Positions 7,436 to 56,759 of a stretch of 64,000 bases of DNA are shown one piece after another. The position numbers and the translations under genes were made by a program. The notes under the pieces were generated by a model. The model was not told where the DNA came from. It saw only the letters and a program-made list of their open reading frames with translations, and did no database searches. The DNA is from Mesorhizobium sp. (GTDB lineage Bacteria > Pseudomonadota > Alphaproteobacteria > Rhizobiales > Rhizobiaceae), in contig NZ_JAEULZ010000018.1 in assembly GCF_016793485.1 (NCBI RefSeq), forward strand, positions 124,001-188,000, given 5' to 3'. Each line of letters opens with the position of its first letter. Positions within the stretch are counted from its first letter, which is position 1.

Positions 7436-8278
7436 GTGAGCGAATCGCAGCCCGGACGGCTCCTGCCCTGGGCGCTGGTGACGCCAGCGCTCCTGTGGAC
7501 GCTTGTTTTCTTCGTCCTGCCCTTCCTCGCCATGGTCGTGCTGAGCCTGACCCATCACGACGACGGCCGGGCGACCTTCGAGAATTACCGCCAGTTCTTC
7601 GATAACCCGAGCTACTGGCGGGCGATGGTCAACTCGCTGCAGGTGACGTCGATCGTGACGGTCATCTCGGTGCTGCTGGCCTATCCCTTCGCGTGGATCC
7701 TCGCCGAGATCGTGCCGCCGCGCCTGCAGCGGCTGGCGCTGGTGCTGGCGATCCTGCCCTTCTGGACGTCCTATGTCGTACGCTCCTACAGCTGGCTGCT
7801 GGTGCTGGCGCAGAACGGCGTCGTCAACCAGGCGCTGACCGGCTCAGGGCTGTTCGACACGCCTTTGCAGATCGCCAACACCCGCGCAGCGACCGTCATC
7901 GGCTTCGTGCATTTTTTCGTCATGCTGCTGACGCTGACCATCTTTGCCAATCTCAAGCAGTTGTCGCCGAGCTACCGGCGCGCGGCGGCAGACCTCGGCG
8001 CCGGGCCGGTGCGCACCTTCCTGCATGTCATTCTTCCGCTGACGCTGCCGGGCATCATGGTCGGCGCGTTCCTGACCTTCGTGCTGGCCATCGGCGACTA
8101 CATCACGCCGCAAATCCTCGGCGGCAACAACGAACTGCTGATGCCGCAGCTCATCATGATGCAGATCGGCCGGCGCGGCGACTTCCCGCTCGCCTCGGCG
8201 CTCGCCATCATCCTGATGGTGGTGGTGACCATCGCCTACATCGTCTGTTCCCGCTGGCTGAAGATCGAGCGGACGTGA
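7436..8278 (+). CDS. ABC transporter permease (PotB-like)
   Basis: The 280-residue inner-membrane protein has about six transmembrane helices and the binding-protein-dependent permease EAA-like loop YRRAAADLGAGPVRTFLHVI, which contacts the ATPase. It starts at GTG 7436, nine bases after the substrate-binding gene, and ends in a TGATG overlap with the second permease. It should form a heterodimeric channel with that partner. Confidence 0.9.
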   Translation: MSESQPGRLLPWALVTPALLWTLVFFVLPFLAMVVLSLTHHDDGRATFENYRQFFDNPSYWRAMVNSLQVTSIVTVISVLLAYPFAWILAEIVPPRLQRLALVLAILPFWTSYVVRSYSWLLVLAQNGVVNQALTGSGLFDTPLQIANTRAATVIGFVHFFVMLLTLTIFANLKQLSPSYRRAAADLGAGPVRTFLHVILPLTLPGIMVGAFLTFVLAIGDYITPQILGGNNELLMPQLIMMQIGRRGDFPLASALAIILMVVVTIAYIVCSRWLKIERT

Positions 8279-9060
8279 TGAAGACAGCCGGCAAGATACT
8301 CGTCTCCGCCTACGCGCTCGCCATCTACGGCTTCATCTTCCTGCCGGTCATCGTGCTCGTGCTGTTCTCGCTGCAGGCGAGTTCCTTCCCGATTCCGCCC
8401 TTCACCGGGCCGTCGCTGCGCTGGTACGAGGCGGTGCTCTCCGACCGGCGACTGATGTCGGCGCTGTTCAATTCCGTCGTGCTGGCCGGCCTCTCTTCGG
8501 CCGTGGCCGTGACGCTCGGCTTCCTCGCCGCCTGGGGTTTTGCGCGCTATCATCTGCCGCGCTCTAGCCTGATGCGCGCGCTGATCACGCTGCCGCTCAC
8601 CGTCAGCTACCTGATCATCGGCATGGGCCTGCTGATCGTCTTCAACTGGGCGGGCGTGCCTAAATCGCTGCTCGCCGCCGGCATCGGCCATGTGGTCATC
8701 AACCTGCCGCTCTGCTTCGCCATCATCTACAGCCAGATGGGCGACAACCAGGTGAATTTCGAACGCGCCGCGCGTGACCTCGGCGCCAGCGAATGGAAGG
8801 TGCTGTTCCTCGTCAGCGTGCCGGTGCTCTGGCCCGCCATCTTCGCCAGTTTCTTCCTGTCGATGACCTTCTCGTGGGACGAGTTCGTCATCGCATTCCT
8901 GCTCACGCGCTTCGACACGACGCTGCCGGTGGAAATCTGGAACCTGCTGCGCTCGGGGCTGAACCCACGCACCAACGCCATCGGCTCGCTGGTGTTCGGC
9001 GTCTCTATCGTCATGGCGCTGCTCCTCGAACTCGTTTTCCTGCGGAGGACCCGCCGATGA
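8278..9060 (+). CDS. ABC transporter permease (PotC-like)
   Basis: The 260-residue inner-membrane protein starts with a transmembrane helix (residues 9-30) and carries the loop FERAARDLGASEWKVLFLVS, the EAA-type ATPase contact. The start ATG overlaps the stop of the first permease, and its stop overlaps the ATG of the ATPase gene. This coupling supports one transporter complex of two permeases and one ATPase. Confidence 0.9.
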   Translation: MKTAGKILVSAYALAIYGFIFLPVIVLVLFSLQASSFPIPPFTGPSLRWYEAVLSDRRLMSALFNSVVLAGLSSAVAVTLGFLAAWGFARYHLPRSSLMRALITLPLTVSYLIIGMGLLIVFNWAGVPKSLLAAGIGHVVINLPLCFAIIYSQMGDNQVNFERAARDLGASEWKVLFLVSVPVLWPAIFASFFLSMTFSWDEFVIAFLLTRFDTTLPVEIWNLLRSGLNPRTNAIGSLVFGVSIVMALLLELVFLRRTRR

Positions 9061-10888: not shown

Positions 10889-11002
10889 ATTAGGTGCCAA
10901 GTGAGCACGGCCCTCGCAAGCGTCGCCGCACCTTTCCGCAACGGCAAATCGGCTATAAGCTGAACTGTATTGCAGGCCGATCAGCCACTACTGGAGCACC
11001 TG

Positions 11003-31029: not shown

Positions 31030-31227
31030 ATGAAAAAGCCGAGGAAAGATGGACCGTCGATATACGGAGAGCGGATTGATTATGTTGTCCACATGCTTTT
31101 CGAATTGGAGAGAATTGCCGAGAAGGAAGGATATCTCTTCGCGTCTTACTTGATGGGCCTTGCCAGGACCGACATCGAAGAGAAGCAGCTTCAGGGATCC
31201 GATAAGGATATGCAGAAAGATGTTTAA
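31030..31227 (+). CDS. Small hypothetical protein of the moron operon
   Basis: The 65-residue, charged protein begins MKKPRKDGPSIYGERIDYVV and has a helical middle (MLFELERIAEKEGYLFASYL). It lies in AT-richer DNA on the plus strand, against the direction of the phage genes. Its end overlaps the start of the methyltransferase gene by eight bases, so the two are likely co-translated. Function unknown. Confidence 0.55.
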   Translation: MKKPRKDGPSIYGERIDYVVHMLFELERIAEKEGYLFASYLMGLARTDIEEKQLQGSDKDMQKDV

Positions 31228-31864
31228 GGAAGGCCGCCTCGAATTCATGATTCGCTGGCACGGTTACCGCCGCTGGAAGCGTAGAAGCACAAAGCTTGCC
31301 GAATACAAATTCTACAAGCTAATGGACGTTACGCCGCCGGGAATCTTCGTCGACCTCGGGGCGAACTTCGGGACCGTATCCGGGAAAGCGCTGGACTTTG
31401 GCCACAAGGTTTACGCGTTTGAGCCTGACCCGCATGCCCTTTCCCGATTGCGGAAGCGCATAGGGAACAACCCGAACGCCACTATAATCCCCAAGGCTGT
31501 GGGGAATTCATCCCGAACCGCCAAATTCTTCCGACGCCCAGATGCTGACGCGGGCGACTTCTCTCAGATTTCATCACTGATGAAGCTTGATGTGCATGAC
31601 CACGAGGTCGAGGTGGAGGTCGTAGACATTGTGGAATTCTTGCGCGGGCTTCCTGAGCCTCCAGCGGTCGTGAAGATGGACATCGAGGGTGGGGAAGCTG
31701 AATGCCTGGAGGCTATCCTTGATGCCGGGCTCCATACCTCAATCGGTCATATATTGGTCGAGACGCACGAGCGGTTTTCAACTGACATTGCCGCTCGGAT
31801 CGATCGTGTCCGTGATCGAATAGAGCGCGAAAAAATCAGCAATATTGACCTCAACTGGATATGA
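31220..31864 (+). CDS. FkbM-family SAM-dependent methyltransferase
   Basis: The 214-residue protein has the class I methyltransferase motif IFVDLGANFGTVSG (SAM binding), followed by VYAFEPDPHALSRLRKRIG (motif II/acidic residue), and the FkbM-type late motif VKMDIEGGEAECLEA. FkbM enzymes O-methylate sugars. It is co-translated with a glycosyltransferase (ATGA overlap) and reads opposite to the phage late genes, so it looks like a moron for surface-sugar modification (inference). Confidence 0.87.
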   Translation: MFKEGRLEFMIRWHGYRRWKRRSTKLAEYKFYKLMDVTPPGIFVDLGANFGTVSGKALDFGHKVYAFEPDPHALSRLRKRIGNNPNATIIPKAVGNSSRTAKFFRRPDADAGDFSQISSLMKLDVHDHEVEVEVVDIVEFLRGLPEPPAVVKMDIEGGEAECLEAILDAGLHTSIGHILVETHERFSTDIAARIDRVRDRIEREKISNIDLNWI

Positions 31865-32613
31865 GCAAGGTCGCATATACCATTGGCACCCTAGTCAATG
31901 ACTGGGGACTATACGATCAGATGTTGCGATCTATGCGAAAGCGCGGCTTCGGCGACGACTGCGAGTTCATCACCATCGATAATTCAGTTGCCAATCAAGG
32001 CGATGGATACGCCGGGTTGAATGACATTCTGAACCGGGCCTCCGGCCGCTATGTCATCCTATGCCATCAAGACGTGGAACTGGTCGATGATGGAAGGGAG
32101 CAACTAGATGCATGCCTTGCTCATCTGGACGCGATTGATCCGACGTGGGCGCTAGCCGGGAATGCTGGAGCATCGCGCTTTAAGCACTATCATCTTTACA
32201 TTTCAGACAACTTTGGAGCCAGGCTCCATACAGGGATGCCGGCACGCGTATACAGCCTCGACGAGAACTTCATTGTGGTTAAGCCAGAGGCGCGTCTTTC
32301 CTTCTCTCGTGACCTGGCCGGGTTCCACATGTATGGCCCGGATATCTGCATGATCGCAGACGTCCTGGGTTGGTCTGCTTATGTGATCCCATTCCACCTC
32401 GTACACTACGGCAAGGCACTTACGGGAAAGCCATTCGCCGATTCCAAGGCAGCGTTTATCACCAAGTGGCGCCGCGCGCTTAGGCATCGGCAAATGCAGA
32501 CGACTGTAACCTACATGGTCTTGGTCGGCCAAAATTGCCCCCGCTGGTACGCAAGGCTTAAGCAGAGGTGGCTACGATCAACCACTCGCAGGCCATACCC
32601 TCGGCAGCCATGA
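31861..32613 (+). CDS. Family 2-like glycosyltransferase
   Basis: The 250-residue protein has a GT-A-like layout: an N-terminal VAYTIGTLVNDWGLYDQML, then DNSVANQGDGYAGLNDILNR, and the acidic motif YVILCHQDVELVDDG in place of DxD. A later AFITKWRRALRHRQ helix and a basic C-terminal tail follow. It overlaps the methyltransferase gene by four bases. The two may change the host O-antigen or glycosylate phage proteins. Donor and acceptor are unknown. Confidence 0.72.
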   Translation: MSKVAYTIGTLVNDWGLYDQMLRSMRKRGFGDDCEFITIDNSVANQGDGYAGLNDILNRASGRYVILCHQDVELVDDGREQLDACLAHLDAIDPTWALAGNAGASRFKHYHLYISDNFGARLHTGMPARVYSLDENFIVVKPEARLSFSRDLAGFHMYGPDICMIADVLGWSAYVIPFHLVHYGKALTGKPFADSKAAFITKWRRALRHRQMQTTVTYMVLVGQNCPRWYARLKQRWLRSTTRRPYPRQP

Positions 32614-48457: not shown

Positions 48458-48793
48458 TTATGCCTGCCCTTCGAGTTGGGCAGCCTTCTGGAGTTCGATC
48501 ATCTTCTCGTCATCGAGCGCCAGAAAATCGAGGATGGTTTGCACGACCTCAGCGCGAGCGGTGCAGAGCGCGCAGTGCAGTTCGTAACCAGCAGGGCTAC
48601 GGGTGCTGGCGATCCATTCGGCATAGTTCGGTCGCCTGAAGAACCCCGCCTTATCCGTGAGGTGCACGAGCAGCATGTCGGCATCTGCCTTGCTGCCATT
48701 GCCCTGAAACAGTCGACGCACCGCCAATGCAAGATCGGCCTCAGCCGCCGCCAGACCCTTCGCCTGGCGGGAGAATGCGAACCAGTTACGCAT
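48458..48793 (-). CDS. Phage head-region protein (Bbp19-like)
   Basis: The 111-residue protein is helical and has RRLFQGNGSKADADMLLVHL and AEVVQTILDFLALDDEKMIE. Its position after the portal and its helix pattern resemble the Bbp19-type small proteins of podoviruses. TGATG overlap with the portal gene sets the start at ATG 48793. Role uncertain. Confidence 0.5.
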   Translation of the reverse strand: MRNWFAFSRQAKGLAAAEADLALAVRRLFQGNGSKADADMLLVHLTDKAGFFRRPNYAEWIASTRSPAGYELHCALCTARAEVVQTILDFLALDDEKMIELQKAAQLEGQA

Positions 48794-50499
48794 CAAGCGT
48801 TCCCAGCCGGGATCAGGCCGGCATCCCGCGCTTGCACGGCGGCCGGTATGGCATCCTTGGCAAGCTGGCCTGCCTGCGTCAGCGTGGCGAGACCCTGTTG
48901 AGCCTGCTTCTCTTTCGCTCGACCGTCACGCAGCGCCGCGACCTCGTCTCGCGACCGGAGCAGCCTTTGCGGCGCGCGGCTCGCATCCTTCTTGATGCGG
49001 ATGTACTCGTCGCTGTCGATGTTATCCATGATGCTCGGGTCCTGCGAAGCCGTGGCGACCTGCACTGCCGAGTTGACCACCATGTCTGCGTCACGCGACT
49101 CCGCAGCCTTGCGCAGGATGTCCAGCGGGCTTGTGAAGGTCGGACGAACCGTCTTGCCCGCCAAACTTTCAGGCGGAAGGTAGCGGCTGTCTTCCGCGTA
49201 CAGGCCTTTCGCCTCAAGGATGGCAAGCTCACGATCGAGATTGGCGGCGAAGCCCGCCTGAATGATCGAGCCCGACGGGCCGAGTAGCTGGCCTTTTTCT
49301 TCCTGCCGGATCAGCGCCTCAGTCGCCGTCATCTGCGGGTTCTGAATGAGCGTCTGGAACAGGTTCACGAACAGCATGTCGCGAATTTCTTCCGCTCGTG
49401 ATGCTGCATACTCGAAGGCCGGCGCGGCGTTGGCGCCCGTGTTGATCGGCACGATGAGCGGTTGGCCGCTGTCACTCACCAGCCCAGGATAGTTCTGTCC
49501 GGGGTTCAACACCGGAACCACATCCAGCTTGGCCTTGGACGCGGTCGACGGGTCTGCCATTTGCTGAAGCAGTCGCAGGCCTGTCCGGCGAACCGCATTG
49601 ATCTCGCGAATGGTGGTCAGCGCATCGATCATCGGCGACGTGCCGTAAGTGTCGTCTTCGTACCGCCGCCAGTTGAAGCAGGAGACCGGGAACGAACGGA
49701 ACCCGCTTTCCTTGCCGATCGCCTCTTCGTCGCAGATCACGTGGTGCGAGACGAACTCCGTATCGAGGTAGCCGGACGGCTGATTGCCAATCCGGTACAT
49801 CCGGCGTTCGTTGCGAGGCCTCACGCTCTGAAGCAGCGTGATCTTCGTCTCGCACTTGTCGGGATCGTCGACCAGCATCTTGATCTTCGGCGGGAGCTTT
49901 TCATAACCGAAGAGCTGGGCAGCCTGGCGCGCGGTCCTGCGATACTTCCGATGGAACGTGTCGGCGATGCCCCAGCGATTGCGGGCAATGTAGGCTTCGT
50001 GTACCGGGACGGATGCATAACGGATCAGCGTTCCGGCGAAACCTTCCTCCGCGTAGAGATAGGCCGGGCCGTAGAACACGACGTTCCGAAGGCAGGATTG
50101 TGTGCCCGGAACGAAGTTAGAGTTCGCCGAGTAGCGCAGCGAGAACAGGAAGTCGCGGAGGTCTTCCGCCCATTCCTTTTCTTCGTCGGTTTCTTCGTCG
50201 TTGATGGCGGCCGTCGAAAGACCATGCCACTTTTCCGACTGGGGAATGATCAGGCTCTCGACGCCGGCAGTCAGCCGGTTGCCCGCAGAAATGGCCGTGT
50301 TGTCGTACACCCGGCTTCCACGCTGTTGCGCGCGGCTGGTCTGCGTCGACTGATCGCCGCTAAACCGACCTGAGAACGAGCTTGGCGCATCGGGGTCGCA
50401 GAATTCGGCAACGGCTTCCCATGCCGCCTCATAGGGGCGGCGAACCGCCTCCATCTCAGTCTGCTTGTCCAAGGCCTCACGAGCGCGTGAATCCGACAT
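48793..50499 (-). CDS. Portal (head-tail connector) protein
   Basis: The 568-residue protein forms the dodecameric ring through which DNA is packed and released. It has AAWEAVAEFCDPDAPSSFSG, STQTSRAQQRGSRVYDNTAI, and later DYGTSPM-like segments (YGTSPMIDALTTIREINAVR) and QTLIQNPQMTATEALIRQEE, as in T7/BPP-1-like podovirus portals. Starts four bases after the upstream gene's stop region (ATG 50499) and overlaps downstream by TGATG. Confidence 0.9.
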   Translation of the reverse strand: MSDSRAREALDKQTEMEAVRRPYEAAWEAVAEFCDPDAPSSFSGRFSGDQSTQTSRAQQRGSRVYDNTAISAGNRLTAGVESLIIPQSEKWHGLSTAAINDEETDEEKEWAEDLRDFLFSLRYSANSNFVPGTQSCLRNVVFYGPAYLYAEEGFAGTLIRYASVPVHEAYIARNRWGIADTFHRKYRRTARQAAQLFGYEKLPPKIKMLVDDPDKCETKITLLQSVRPRNERRMYRIGNQPSGYLDTEFVSHHVICDEEAIGKESGFRSFPVSCFNWRRYEDDTYGTSPMIDALTTIREINAVRRTGLRLLQQMADPSTASKAKLDVVPVLNPGQNYPGLVSDSGQPLIVPINTGANAAPAFEYAASRAEEIRDMLFVNLFQTLIQNPQMTATEALIRQEEKGQLLGPSGSIIQAGFAANLDRELAILEAKGLYAEDSRYLPPESLAGKTVRPTFTSPLDILRKAAESRDADMVVNSAVQVATASQDPSIMDNIDSDEYIRIKKDASRAPQRLLRSRDEVAALRDGRAKEKQAQQGLATLTQAGQLAKDAIPAAVQARDAGLIPAGNA

Positions 50500-52759: not shown

Positions 52760-52938
52760 CGGAATTCCCCCAGCGGATCGGACACCGTGACCGGCGCAGG
52801 CTTCCCCGTATCCATCGGCTCGATCTCATCCAGATCGGCAAAGGGCTTCTTCGACTGCCCGACGATCTCCCCGGATGCGACGTGGATTTTCACGTACGCT
52901 TCCAGATCCTCGTCATAGCTCTGGACGAACGCGGTCAC
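52756..52938 (-). CDS. Small phage protein
   Basis: The 60-residue acidic protein (SYDEDLEAYVKIHVASGEIV) ends DPLGEFR, the same end motif (DPLxGFR-like) as the nuclease half of the terminase just upstream (DPLAGFR). This suggests local duplication of the 3' end. It overlaps both neighbours by four bases. Unknown role. Confidence 0.55.
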   Translation of the reverse strand: MTAFVQSYDEDLEAYVKIHVASGEIVGQSKKPFADLDEIEPMDTGKPAPVTVSDPLGEFR

Positions 52939-53690
52939 CGGAAACCCGCCAGCGGATCAGACTGCACCGTGGCGGCTTTCACCGCCTTGAACGATGCAGG
53001 ATCAACCACTGCCTCACGCAACATCATCATGGCGTAACGCGTCGCTGACATCAGATCGTCCCGCAGCTTCACGATGGCCCCATCCTTACGGTGATAGAGC
53101 CGGAATTCTTCGAACCATTCGTTCAGGTGCTCGAAGACCTTGAACCGGCCCGTCTGCATGCGGTCCAGCATCTCCATGATGCCGGCCTCGACCGAGACAG
53201 AGCCGTCCGGGAATTGCGCATGCGTCGGCAGCATGTTCAGCCCGGCTTCCGTGTACTGCTTGGCCAAGGCGATGCCCGCGCCTTCCAGTGTTTCGCGCCG
53301 GCCGTCTCGTGGCCATGACCACGGCAGCCAATGACCCCATGGCCGAAGTGCGACCGCCTGCATCGCTGGCGTCTGTTGCGATGCCCGATGCGCCTTCGTC
53401 ACGTAGACGATGTCCGCTTCGGTATCCCACGCAAGCTCGACGCCGGCCGAGGGATGGTCCCAACCGAAGTCGAGACCGCCGATGCGCGGCCAGAACTTCG
53501 GAATCCTGATCGGTGCAATGGTGATGTCCGTTTCAGGCACCGGGAAGATACGCCCCGAGCCGAGAACCGGCACACCGCGAGCCCGAGCTTCACGCTCATG
53601 AGCCGGATATGCCTCAATGATCGCTGCCCGCTGCTCTGGCGTGTAGTGCTCAGCGTCGTCGATCGTCATGAAGGTGACGTGTCGCGTCAT
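52935..53690 (-). CDS. Terminase large subunit, nuclease half (split gene)
   Basis: The 251-residue protein carries the C-terminal nuclease domain of TerL: IGGLDFGWDHPSAGVELAW with the first catalytic Asp, and later acidic residues. The N-terminal MTIDDAEHYTPEQRAAIIEA is the segment that in intact terminases continues from the ATPase domain. ATG 53690 overlaps the ATPase ORF stop by four bases (ATGA), and the two are in different frames (-1). The halves may work as two chains, may need frameshifting, or the gene may be mutated. Confidence 0.85.
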   Translation of the reverse strand: MTRHVTFMTIDDAEHYTPEQRAAIIEAYPAHEREARARGVPVLGSGRIFPVPETDITIAPIRIPKFWPRIGGLDFGWDHPSAGVELAWDTEADIVYVTKAHRASQQTPAMQAVALRPWGHWLPWSWPRDGRRETLEGAGIALAKQYTEAGLNMLPTHAQFPDGSVSVEAGIMEMLDRMQTGRFKVFEHLNEWFEEFRLYHRKDGAIVKLRDDLMSATRYAMMMLREAVVDPASFKAVKAATVQSDPLAGFR

Positions 53691-54406
53691 CGCTTGGCCT
53701 TCACCATCGCCTCGACCTGCTCAGGCGTCAGGAACATCAGCACGACTTCCGACATGCCGAGCAGAGGCGTGAACGTGATCATCGTGATACCGCCCGTCGC
53801 GTTGGTGCGCGTCAGCCCCTCGCTATAGATGTCCTGCGGCGGCTCTTCGTCGAACCAGACGCCATCGAGCGTCGGACCCTGCCACTTCTCACGTCCCATC
53901 TCGTAGGACTTGAAGCCGAGGACGCTTTGCCCCGCCTGAATATCGCCGCCGCCGCCATGGCGAACCACGATGCTATCCAAGGCGTTCGGAATGCCGCGAC
54001 TGGGGAACGTGTCGACGATCGCGTCGCCGGGGATCATCCCGGTTCCCCATTCCGACTTCTTGGCCGGATCACCGACCAGCATCTTTTGCACGGTGTCGCG
54101 GGTTGAGCCCCCAGTCAGGCCCGCCGCCCACATGGCGACCGGCTTGCGGAATACCTTGCCGTCCCACCAGTTCGGATAGCGACCGCTGAGGTGCATCGCC
54201 CATTCAGCGCCGCCGGCCAGCGTCTTCCCAAGCTGGTTGCCGGCCATGAACAGGCGTTCGCGATGTTCGGCGCCGGCAATGTGGAATGTGCGCTGCTTGG
54301 CGTAAGGCTGATAGTTCGCCAGCCTGTTACGGCTCTTCCGCCTTTCCTGTTCCTCCAGCAGCAGGAGCAGTTCCCGCCTTTCCGAGGAGTTCAGCGATTC
54401 GAGCAT
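53687..54406 (-). CDS. Terminase large subunit, ATPase half (split gene)
   Basis: The 239-residue protein has the packaging motor ATPase motifs: Walker A FMAGNQLGKT (about 53-62), Walker B LDGVWFDEEPPQ and the coupling motif ITFTPLLG. It ends EQVEAMVKAKR at the four-base overlap with the nuclease ORF. ATG 54406 is preferred; an in-frame TTG at 54445 would overlap more of the small-subunit gene. Together with the next ORF it makes a terminase of about 490 residues, the usual size. Confidence 0.87.
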   Translation of the reverse strand: MLESLNSSERRELLLLLEEQERRKSRNRLANYQPYAKQRTFHIAGAEHRERLFMAGNQLGKTLAGGAEWAMHLSGRYPNWWDGKVFRKPVAMWAAGLTGGSTRDTVQKMLVGDPAKKSEWGTGMIPGDAIVDTFPSRGIPNALDSIVVRHGGGGDIQAGQSVLGFKSYEMGREKWQGPTLDGVWFDEEPPQDIYSEGLTRTNATGGITMITFTPLLGMSEVVLMFLTPEQVEAMVKAKR

Positions 54407-54860
54407 CAATGGCCTCGTCAGACGTGGTCTGGAGCGAGCCGGCAACGTTCAGGTCCAGCGTGCGGCCGTATTTCTTCGGCTTCAGCTTCTCAGCGATCCA
54501 TTGCCGCGTGCTGACCCGCAGAGCAGACCGCCGCAGCGCTTCGCCGTTCTCTGCGTAGCCGATCACCTCGCCGTCCGAGTTCTTCCGCTCCATCCAGTCG
54601 TTGGAGCCGTCGTCGGCGATATCCGTCATCTCATCGACCAGCACATCGGCCTGCGCTTCGCGCGCATACGCGTACTTGGTCCGGAATGATTCGCGAGCCG
54701 GATCAGCGAGCCACGCAAACACCGTGGACTTGCCCGGCATATCTTCCTGTTCGCAGATAGACCTCAGCGAGCGCCCGGAAGCGATCTCGTCACAGATGTA
54801 TGACGCTACCTCTTCCGAGAACTCGCTTGGCCGCCCCGCCTTACTGCTGGCTTCCGCCAT
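54327..54860 (-). CDS. Terminase small subunit (Sf6-like)
   Basis: The 177-residue protein should bind the phage pac/cos site. It has GRPSEFSEEVASYICDEIAS, SICEQEDMPGKSTVFAWLAD (HTH) and QADVLVDEMTDIADDGSND, the Sf6-type small terminase pattern. The start is ATG 54860, which overlaps the preceding gene; a long upstream extension in frame has no support. It overlaps the large-subunit ATPase gene by 80 bases. Confidence 0.87.
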   Translation of the reverse strand: MAEASSKAGRPSEFSEEVASYICDEIASGRSLRSICEQEDMPGKSTVFAWLADPARESFRTKYAYAREAQADVLVDEMTDIADDGSNDWMERKNSDGEVIGYAENGEALRRSALRVSTRQWIAEKLKPKKYGRTLDLNVAGSLQTTSDEAIDARIAELLGKAGTAPAAGGTGKAEEP

Positions 54861-55185
54861 CTTCGCCTTCCGTCTTGTCGGTCTCAGGCTCGACAGGCGT
54901 ATCCTTGCCCTTCTTGCCGCGACCAGTCTTGCCGGTCTTTGCCGCTTCAGCCTTGGCTGCCGACTTCTCGCGGACCTTCGCCACCGGATCATCACCGGGG
55001 AAGCCCCACTCGCCGGCCTTCTCGATACCGCCGCCGCGCACCATGCCAATCTTCACGCCCTTGTCGATGCGCTCGACCTTGGCATTGCCTTTGCGCACGT
55101 CGGGTGCGCCGCCTTCCATCTGTGCGATTGCACTGATGACTTCCTGACCTTCGTCGTTGGTGACGATCGTCGCCCAGCGTTCCAT
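54841..55185 (-). CDS. Phage hypothetical protein before the terminase
   Basis: The 114-residue protein starts MERWATIVTNDEGQEVISAI and has a strongly charged C-terminal third (KAEAAKTGKTGRGKKGKDTP). First gene of the late operon. ATG 55185 follows a CCTGAAAGGAAA-type ribosome site. Unknown role, possibly DNA-binding. Confidence 0.6.
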   Translation of the reverse strand: MERWATIVTNDEGQEVISAIAQMEGGAPDVRKGNAKVERIDKGVKIGMVRGGGIEKAGEWGFPGDDPVAKVREKSAAKAEAAKTGKTGRGKKGKDTPVEPETDKTEGEDGGSQQ

Positions 55186-55353
55186 GTGTTTTCCTTTCAG
55201 GGGTTGCGGGGGGATTTTCCGGCGCCGACGCTTTCCCGGTGTGTTATGCGCGCCCTCGCGAGCGCCCGTCCCCCACCAGGTTCCTCTTCAGAAACGAGCG
55301 AACAGCTTTCTCCGCATAGCCGGCATAAGCGGCGGATTCTCGGGGACGGCGAA

Positions 55354-55430
55354 TGGTTGCAGGGATCGGATTTGAACCGATGTCCTCTCGGTTATGAGCC
55401 GAGCGCGCGACCGGGCTGCGCTACCCTGCG
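55354..55430 (-). tRNA. tRNA with CAT anticodon, initiator-like
   Basis: The 77-base gene folds as tRNA: acceptor CGCAGGG/CCCTGCA, D arm, anticodon arm CTCGG-CTCATAA-CCGAG with anticodon CAT, T arm with GGTTCAAATCC, and encoded CCA. The first pair is C1 x A72, the mismatch that marks bacterial initiator tRNA. The anticodon stem has two of the three G-C pairs of initiator tRNAs (G30-C40, G31-C39; the third is C29-G41). It lies in the leader of the late operon, so it is phage-borne. Confidence 0.88.
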
Positions 55431-55872
55431 AAACGTTCCCCACCGCGACATGTGCAGTCAGGGGAACGCGCCGTTTCGAACCGACGACTTCCGGGAAAGG
55501 GAGCTACCCGCGCCCGGCACGCTGGCCCCGAGAAAGCCCGGAGCCGACCTGTTGCGAGGCAGGGCGACGAACTCCTGCATCTCTTCGCGCCATCGGCGCT
55601 ACTGGCCACCTTCCATCAAGAGCGGTGGCGCGACGGAAGTCCGTTCCGTCCTCTCGCGTCTCTGAATTTTCGGAAATGCTTCGCAACGCGCCCAGGATCA
55701 GCGCATTGCGCCTTCGTTCCTGAGCCGGGACCGTCCCGCTGGCAGCGCCCGAAGGCCCCCAAACAGTCGAACGGTTCATCCGCAGCGCTTATGTAGATTA
55801 TTTGCACGATTTCCGCAAGGATCGGGTTTCACGTGCAACAATTCACGAAACGAGAGCAGAACAAACGCCAGA
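55431..55872 (-). other. Late-operon leader and regulatory region
   Basis: The 440 bases between the NusG-like gene and the tRNA hold no recognised gene. They contain a promoter-like pair (separate entry), a hairpin GACGGAA-GTCCG-TTCCGTC at 55632-55650 without T-run, and GC-rich stretches. This is the expected place for the late promoter, a nearby terminator and the antiterminator's target site. A tRNA-like stretch at about 55470-55540 was examined and not accepted. Confidence 0.45.
55790..55818 (-). promoter_or_regulatory. Candidate late promoter, with inverted repeat
   Basis: On the minus strand TTGCGG (55818-55813) and TACATA (55795-55790) are separated by 17 bases, a good sigma70-type pair. 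It starts about 55 bases after the NusG-like stop. An inverted repeat TTGCACG...CGTGCAA (55802-55838, seven-base arms) flanks the -35, so a regulator may bind. Not tested. Confidence 0.45.
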
Positions 55873-56529
55873 TTACGCCGCTTTTGGCTTGCTGCGCTTC
55901 TCCGTTTCCTTGAGCTGGTCGGCTTCAAACTCGACAGGCGTCATCCGCCCGAAGATATCGACGAGGGCCACCACGCGATCGTCATGGCTGAGATGATCGA
56001 TTTCGGCGAGGAACGTTTCGAACGGCCCGTCTTCGACCCGGAAGATGCGACCCTTCGCAAAGCGGCTTTCCATCTTGCTCCGGTTCGTCTCGCCCCGAGC
56101 CCGCTTGCCGGCCGCCGTCGTATCGTACACGGAATTGAACTCTTCCTGCATGATGATCTCGATGACCCGAGCAGGAACACGCAGCGGCCCGTCATGACCC
56201 TTGAGCGGCCCGAGCACGCCGTTGATGCCAGTCTTCCCGTCCTTGCTCTGCACGACCTCCCGCCAGTCATCCCGCGCCAGTTGCTCGCTGCCATCCTTCC
56301 GAGGATGGACGATGAACACGTAGCCAGGCAGCAGCGGCACGTTGCGCTCGACCCAGACGCGCATCCGACGGTTCTGATTATCGTAACGACGACGCGGCAG
56401 GTATGTGTCGTACCCTTTGCCGGCGAGTTCTTCAAAGATGGAGTCTTCCATGCCGGCCCGAACGCGCAGGATGAACCAGCGTCGATCGTCGACCGTCATG
56501 TTCATGCAGGAAGGCACTGAGATTTTCAC
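55873..56529 (-). CDS. NusG paralog (phage transcription elongation/antitermination factor)
   Basis: The 218-residue protein has an N-terminal NGN domain (about residues 15-100): RRWFILRVRAGMEDSIFEEL, then YDTYLPRRRYDNQNRRMRVW and LLPGYVFIVHP. A C-terminal KOW domain follows (about 157-205): FAKGRIFRVEDGPFETFLAE and RVVALVDIFGRMTPVEFE. This is a specialised NusG paralog, like RfaH. GTG 56529 overlaps the upstream gene by GTGA. Being the last early gene, just before the candidate late promoter, it likely allows RNA polymerase to read through into late genes (inference). Confidence 0.88.
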   Translation of the reverse strand: MKISVPSCMNMTVDDRRWFILRVRAGMEDSIFEELAGKGYDTYLPRRRYDNQNRRMRVWVERNVPLLPGYVFIVHPRKDGSEQLARDDWREVVQSKDGKTGINGVLGPLKGHDGPLRVPARVIEIIMQEEFNSVYDTTAAGKRARGETNRSKMESRFAKGRIFRVEDGPFETFLAEIDHLSHDDRVVALVDIFGRMTPVEFEADQLKETEKRSKPKAA

Positions 56530-56759
56530 TGCTTGGTCCCTTTGTGCGCGTGAGCCATTTTGATGAAAGAGGCGGCATCGCCCTTGATCGCGTCCAGCCC
56601 GGCGAGCATCGTCTTTTCGTCGCCGCCGAGCTTAATCAGGAACACGCCGATCGCGGTTGACAGTGCAGCGCCGCAGACCTCGATGTCCTTGCCGAGCATG
56701 CTGATTTCCATCTTGCGCGACAGAGCGCGGATCGACTGGTGTTTCTGTTCAGGTGTCAC
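56526..56759 (-). CDS. Small phage protein
   Basis: The 77-residue helical protein has TPEQKHQSIRALSRKMEISM and MLAGLDAIKGDAASFIKMAH. It is coupled to the NusG-like gene by a four-base overlap. Unknown role. Confidence 0.55.
   Translation of the reverse strand: MTPEQKHQSIRALSRKMEISMLGKDIEVCGAALSTAIGVFLIKLGGDEKTMLAGLDAIKGDAASFIKMAHAHKGTKQ

Follow-up and report, generated by a model that had tools for sequence, protein, structure and literature searches.

In phage lambda, the gene for Q precedes the late promoter, a leader and the terminase genes. NusG is a universal transcription factor, whose paralogs are associated with capsules, antibiotics, conjugation and other such tasks. In one of them, RfaH, the KOW domain folds as a helical hairpin (autoinhibition). 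PMC11150451 places the elements of Q and AlpA and the putative elements of GafZ between -35 and -10, and PMC12691694 states that antitermination by LoaP needs a UNCG-type hairpin in the leader RNA. RfaH-like genes on prophages have been mentioned earlier, with no role assigned to them in the passage concerned (PMC7593976), and in the open-licence literature we found no functional work on phage NusG-like late-gene systems. Here we analyse a prophage held by the window, i.e. the whole stretch of 64,000 nt under study (Mesorhizobium sp., contig NZ_JAEULZ010000018.1). We think it likely that its NusG-like gene encodes a phage-specific NusG paralog, which acts as a late-gene antiterminator and is recruited at the late leader.

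The NusG-like gene and its relatives

The gene lies downstream of genes for a ParB-like protein, a primase and a helicase, and the packaging genes follow it on the same strand:

56526 to 56759, minus strand: 77-aa ORF whose 3' end overlaps the start of the NusG-like gene; no Pfam match, weak PHROG matches of unknown function (best 0.0052)
55873 to 56529, minus strand: NGN-KOW (NusG-like) gene, 218 aa, GTG start at 56529, alternative ATG at 56505; closes the early operon
54841 to 55185, minus strand: 114-aa ORF, first gene downstream of the leader; no Pfam or PHROG match
54327 to 54860, minus strand: terminase small subunit, Sf6-like (PF20901)
53687 to 54445, minus strand: terminase large subunit, ATPase half (PF03237)
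52935 to 53690, minus strand: terminase large subunit, nuclease half (PF17289), a separate overlapping ORF
48793 to 50499, minus strand: head-to-tail connecting protein (PF12236)

Further ORFs continue on this strand to a muramidase at about 29.6 kb; the late operon spans roughly 26 kb. Two plus-strand ORFs (31160 to 32613), perhaps inserted cargo, lie within this minus-strand region. The large terminase is split into two ORFs (54445 to 52935, minus strand), one for the ATPase half and one for the nuclease half, which overlap by ATGA; it also comes as two separate pieces in L096 and as one ORF in L088.

By profile and by predicted fold, the protein is a member of the NusG superfamily. Pfam finds the NGN domain (PF02357, 1.9e-10) at residues 16-125 and gives no KOW match, the NCBIfam NusG profile covers residues 56-206 at 55.7 bits (cut-off 135.7), and PHROG 6386, 'transcription antiterminator', spans residues 12-207 (1.4e-22). 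An AlphaFold2 model (mean pLDDT 88.6, pTM 0.61) comprises the NGN domain, two linker helices and a C-terminal five-stranded barrel, and its best PDB matches in Foldseek are NusG and RfaH structures. The initial annotation had described a complete NGN-KOW protein as the last early gene, a description borne out by the ORF, the Pfam NGN match, the NCBIfam profile reaching residue 206 and the predicted barrel. The C-terminal domain resembles the NusG KOW (DGPF, IFGR-TPVE), and with these NusG-like residues kept, binding of Rho or S10 could still be possible.

PF02357 has two matches in the host genome, this protein and the host NusG, and the two share 24% identity. In a tree of 75 rows, the window protein falls into a clade of five phage proteins (SH-aLRT 100), with housekeeping NusG in a separate clade; this was a quick tree, in which several branches are long; it takes 37 of the 58 relatives with near-duplicates left out, and lacks L013, which the gene caller missed. 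A recent copy of the host NusG, the origin that the initial annotation had named as fatal to its reading, is thus ruled out by the identity and the separate phage clade. The protein is not the housekeeping NusG either: it scores 55.7 against 135.7 bits, sits in its own clade and has phage neighbours instead of translation genes. Taken together, the phage NGN proteins do not form one clade in the tree (10 changes), and several phage lineages may have acquired paralogs, or the deep branches may be unresolved.

The relatives come from several searches. At 1e-10, 9 of 394 family genomes matched, the window's own included, and two others are close (57%). The order-level genome search was dominated by housekeeping NusG (288 of 397 genomes) and gave tree rows only, namely 28 of the loci L039-L067, L066 being without a usable ORF. 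A scan of viral contigs with the protein as single query found no relative; alignment queries were needed, and the alignment-based scans gave 50 loci. One false positive is among these, L099, which groups with housekeeping NusG in the tree. As near-duplicates are frequent (L068/L069/L070, L082/L083, L093/L098, L105/L106 and others), the counts given here refer to loci and not to independent phages.

The position just before the terminase, noted initially for this single prophage, recurs: 46 of the 50 viral-contig loci have a gene for a large terminase subunit downstream in the same orientation, the four others being L095 and L103 at contig ends, L099 and L108. Among the genome loci the terminase is found in 6 of 8 within 8 kb, and in 7 of 8 when L016 is read further. 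The downstream terminases span different Pfam families (TerL_ATPase/nuclease, Terminase_6, Terminase_3 and GpA; for cluster c74, two of three proteins were checked and are Terminase_6), which argues that the NusG-like module has moved between packaging systems. Ten representatives of the upstream clusters comprise six replication proteins, one ParB-like protein, one repressor-like protein and two of unknown function. The gap 3' of the NusG-like genes has a median of 668 nt (n = 57), compared with 22 nt for 669 other same-strand gaps, both from our own gene caller, and some phages carry inserted genes in it.

The late leader and its conserved element

Between the NusG-like gene and the first late ORF, the window holds the following features:

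55790 to 55818, minus strand: predicted late promoter TTGCGG-17-TACATA, one copy in the window
55727 to 55780, minus strand: conserved element of the late leader, predicted to fold as RNA with a cUUCGg tetraloop
55551 to 55660, minus strand: skipping-rope RNA (Rfam RF02924), 51.3 bits against a gathering score of 36.7
55354 to 55430, minus strand: tRNA-Met(CAT) with encoded CCA and a C1-A72 mismatch, putatively initiator-type

The leader thus contains the conserved element, the skipping-rope RNA and the tRNA-Met. The promoter proposed initially directly downstream of the gene was located at 55818 to 55790, and leader comparison shows that it and its position are conserved in relatives; a generic promoter scan of 54800-56600 returned no promoter at its threshold. 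The leader itself exceeds the 400 bases first given: the first ORF (55185) begins after about 600 nt, and the small terminase gene (54860) after about 920 nt.

Comparison of leaders in related prophages, which the initial annotation had proposed as a check, did yield a conserved element, at 55780 to 55727. Across the seven loci of the window clade (clade A), a single conserved block follows the gene, consisting of the promoter and then the element. The latter starts with a GGATGATTTG-like sequence (GGATGAACCG in the window) roughly 8-11 nt past the -10, and a G+C-rich stretch with a tetraloop hairpin follows; its distance to the late promoter is near-constant. The tetraloop is UUCG in five of the seven elements, the window's included, and GAAA in two. 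In other clades a second version, the B/D element, occupies the same place behind a similar promoter and consists of GATTTG, GCGGACC, a hairpin and GGGAATACTCGCCGG. Several NGN clades each have their own conserved leader block.

On the alignment of the clade-A elements (A6), RNAalifold predicts 19 pairs, five of which change on both sides, a number that 6 of 500 shuffles reach. This alignment has only seven sequences, two of them near copies, and the structure was itself derived from it. Of its cells 94.7% are paired, compared with 26-52% when slid; a single shuffle in 500 attains the covariation score, but further pair types are no more numerous than in shuffles (457/500). For 29 distinct B/D copies (A7, in which row L081 is misaligned), 96.1% are paired, compared with 45-64% when slid, no shuffle of 500 reaches the covariation score, and the apical stem covaries; the outer four pairs are invariant, and the two pairs in which both sides change stay within shuffles (91/500). 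Variants of this apical stem across 63 loci include CCTC/GAGG, CCAC/GTGG, CCCATC/GATGGG and CCTACA/TGTAGG, and in phiLM21 the first outer pair reads, by eye, U-A and not G-C. Energy-based folding of four single elements gave structures no stronger than those of shuffles. Such covariation of predicted helices is what one would expect of a leader RNA, and the alignments suggest that the element is probably structured as RNA. Covariance models of the two versions, R1 (clade A) and R2 (B/D), are weakly alike, in that six weak R1 matches (E 0.06 to 0.97) include five at leader blocks that had been identified independently. R1 matches the window element at 55791 to 55707 with 86.6 bits, the window being one of the seven sequences of the model.

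Our own scan found no terminator-like site in the seven window-clade leaders, so transcription there could be blocked by Rho. For the window leader a second scan returned a single weak site, which is below the mean of the shuffles; this lack of a convincing terminator counts against antitermination. Within 400 nt behind the B/D element, terminator-like hairpins occur in 25 of 60 loci, compared with 1 in antisense and 2.4 expected from shuffles. In L131, L152, L160 and L163 a hairpin GGCGCAT-GGAGAAATGCGCC stands just behind the element and encloses a Shine-Dalgarno-like GGAG and an ATG; only some of the phages have a T run after it.

The skipping-rope RNA is ruled out as a general part of the system, being present in 2 of 51 records (the window and L068, at about 8894-9000 on the plus strand); it also scored below the cut-off in 1 of 14 control genomes. 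The tRNA recurs more widely: a sense tRNA-Met(CAT) lies between NusG-like gene and terminase in 14 of 59 loci (the window and 13 further), and 22 of the 50 element loci with enough sequence have a tRNA-Met no more than 1.3 kb past the element. The tRNA-Met of phiLM21 is deposited on the minus strand and read on the plus strand by ARAGORN. Since position 72, the fifth from the 3' end, is A in 26 of 28 distinct leader tRNAs (opposite T in six of the 26), and since the window copy carries the C1-A72 mismatch and shares 73% identity with an initiator-type tRNA-Met of the host, the leader tRNA is probably of initiator type. An exact match to the canonical GGG/CCC initiator anticodon stem is absent from the host genome too. 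One idea is that the leader tRNA replaces a host tRNA cut by a defence nuclease.

Linkage of element and NGN gene

The clade-A pattern has five matches in the viral collection, three of them near-duplicates, all on contigs of the NusG-like family, and R1 exceeds 84 bits in 3 of 394 family genomes, those with close relatives, besides two weak matches of 28 bits. As pattern and model were made from the same loci (R1 from sequences that include the window and two of the three strongly matching genomes), this shows specificity only. The host genome has one strong R1 copy, the next best match scoring 17.8 bits.

The B/D element, used as a DNA query, led to 63 viral loci, 55 of them on contigs outside the earlier list of relatives. 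Where at least 500 nt lay upstream, an NGN match was present upstream on the same strand in 53 of 55 loci (weak in L128, 9e-5; missing in L126 and L171), and in 46 of 48 once eight previously known contigs were removed. The NGN gene ends 15-18 nt before the element in 37 of the 53. In the 394 genomes, R2 gives 24 matches in 17 genomes. Thirteen of the 24 have an NGN match within flanks of roughly 1.5 kb, and for three more (L207 in G266, L210 in G063, L211 in G377) a same-strand NGN match lies 1.9-4.1 kb upstream.

For the remaining eight, no NGN gene was found in the stretch examined. G212 accounts for four of these, three of them consecutive ahead of a terminase and the other 9 kb past a broken NGN gene; one in G257 precedes a broken terminase and two tRNA-Met genes, and those in G358, G149 and G340 have neither NGN gene nor terminase nearby. 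Such elements speak against strict dependence on the NGN gene, or mark target sites that lie before inserted genes or in remnants. Tandem promoter-plus-element units before one terminase were seen at 8104, 10599 and 15219 of L228 (G212) and at 11001 and 11749 of L015, as if inserted genes owned a copy.

The put RNA of phage HK022 is an element that works by itself or with host factors, and one could speculate that the late-leader element does the same, with the NGN gene as an accessory or hitch-hiker. A probably structured element close behind the promoter, the eight of 24 genomic elements without an NGN gene and the multiple copies in L015 (two) and G212 (four) would suit this. We nevertheless consider it unlikely, given an NGN gene upstream of 53 of 55 element matches despite differing terminases and C-terminal domains, and given the separate leader block of each of several NGN clades.

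The proteins encoded upstream of the B/D element differ in their C-terminal half. By a short motif, 39 of the 53 are of a helical type, 11 are KOW-like and three are others; L128 is helical by eye, which brings the helical total to about 40 of 53, and L127 and L146 are truncated. The loci L119-L181, L182 and L183 have helical-C-terminus NGN proteins in place of KOW ones, with the leader element in common. Three of four helical-type proteins tested in Pfam match NusG over the NGN part, while that of phiLM21 matches nothing. An AlphaFold2 model from nine aligned members shows the NGN domain plus helices (mean pLDDT 83.1), and at E up to 0.001 Foldseek matches it to RfaH and NusG structures. Because the same element occurs with both C-termini, the NGN half is its likely partner. 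This makes the exchange a natural experiment on a testable pair, in which what the NGN domain alone recognises becomes directly accessible to test.

A further alternative is that the window protein serves elongation or coupling in general, taking the place of host NusG or competing with it in all transcription, with no site specificity. Its NusG-KOW-like C-terminal domain and predicted barrel would agree with such a role, which seems to us quite improbable for a family with many members lacking a KOW domain, a pre-terminase position in 46 of 50 loci and a linked leader element with a single strong copy in the host genome.

Proposed late-gene control and comparison with known systems

Position, cis-element and covariation together point to a defined role in late-gene control. 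With a conserved late-leader element accompanying the gene and its relatives, these phages probably switch on their late genes by a factor of the NusG type and not of the Q type. The initial annotation's reading of a phage NusG-type factor for late genes is thus supported by the separate clade, the position and a leader element that predicts an NGN gene upstream.

One could imagine the opposite sign of control, with the protein repressing or terminating late transcription, or shutting off the host; according to PMC7819879, the housekeeping NusG of E. coli aids Rho termination. The specialised paralogs described in passages of PMC7819879 and PMC12691694 are antiterminators, though, and the last early position suits an activator, which leaves this a very improbable reading.

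For antitermination at the late leader, we infer a start site, a recruitment step and direct reading of RNA as follows. The paralog would be made from the last early gene, and host RNA polymerase would initiate directly behind this gene, at the late promoter. The conserved element, formed by the initial 60-70 nt of the RNA or by the non-template strand where it is exposed, would recruit the NGN domain to the elongating polymerase. So modified, the polymerase would pass terminators or Rho in the leader and throughout a late operon of roughly 26 kb. Between reading of RNA, as by LoaP, and of non-template DNA, as by RfaH, the covariation favours RNA, while the near-constant promoter distance suits either.

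With some reserve, we lean towards a broader proposal for a clan of alphaproteobacterial phages, in which NGN-domain antiterminators would be another Q-position regulator, each reading a structured element of the late transcript. NGN domain and element would constitute the recognition pair, with an exchangeable C-terminus (KOW or helical). The initiator-type tRNA would be part of the late programme, for example by replacing nuclease-cut host initiator tRNA, and extra element copies before inserted genes would make up a small regulon.

The closest annotated relatives are phages: 'NusG-like transcription antiterminator' or similar words are found in the annotation of phiLM21 and of two Rhizobium phages. 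Sinorhizobium phage phiLM21 and Rhizobium phage RHph_N28_2 share the pre-terminase position and a B-type element, and phiLM21 also the tRNA-Met, but their proteins are of the helical C-terminal type and not KOW (alignment A8), and the name is an annotation.

RfaH is likewise a specialised paralog with an NGN domain, and the NGN part of RfaH chains gives matches of about 1e-9 to our profile A4, but the window protein scores 35 bits against 144.5 for the RfaH equivalog. Its model shows a beta barrel where RfaH has a helical hairpin, although a model may miss a metamorphic state. Near-matches to the ops sequence in the window number 41 against 39.8 expected, none inside the element, so an ops element in the leader is at chance level only. 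UpxY is rejected as well (42 against 100 bits).

LoaP, which occurs in Bacillota and others, is also a NusG paralog near its target operon, and the window element with its cUUCGg tetraloop is a candidate for the corresponding hairpin. The window protein differs in scoring 24.3 bits against a LoaP cut-off of 125, in serving a phage late operon and not secondary metabolites, and in having its element close behind the promoter. The arrangement of Q and its functional analogues AlpA and GafZ is matched by a NusG-like gene before late promoter, leader and terminase and by an element at the late promoter, but here the element lies behind the -10. The protein has no match to the lambda Q family; Pfam gives NusG only, and the PHROG matches are confined to two 'transcription antiterminator' families, one of which, 6386, covers the protein. 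The best reading is that the protein would work like Q and LoaP and is a member of neither.
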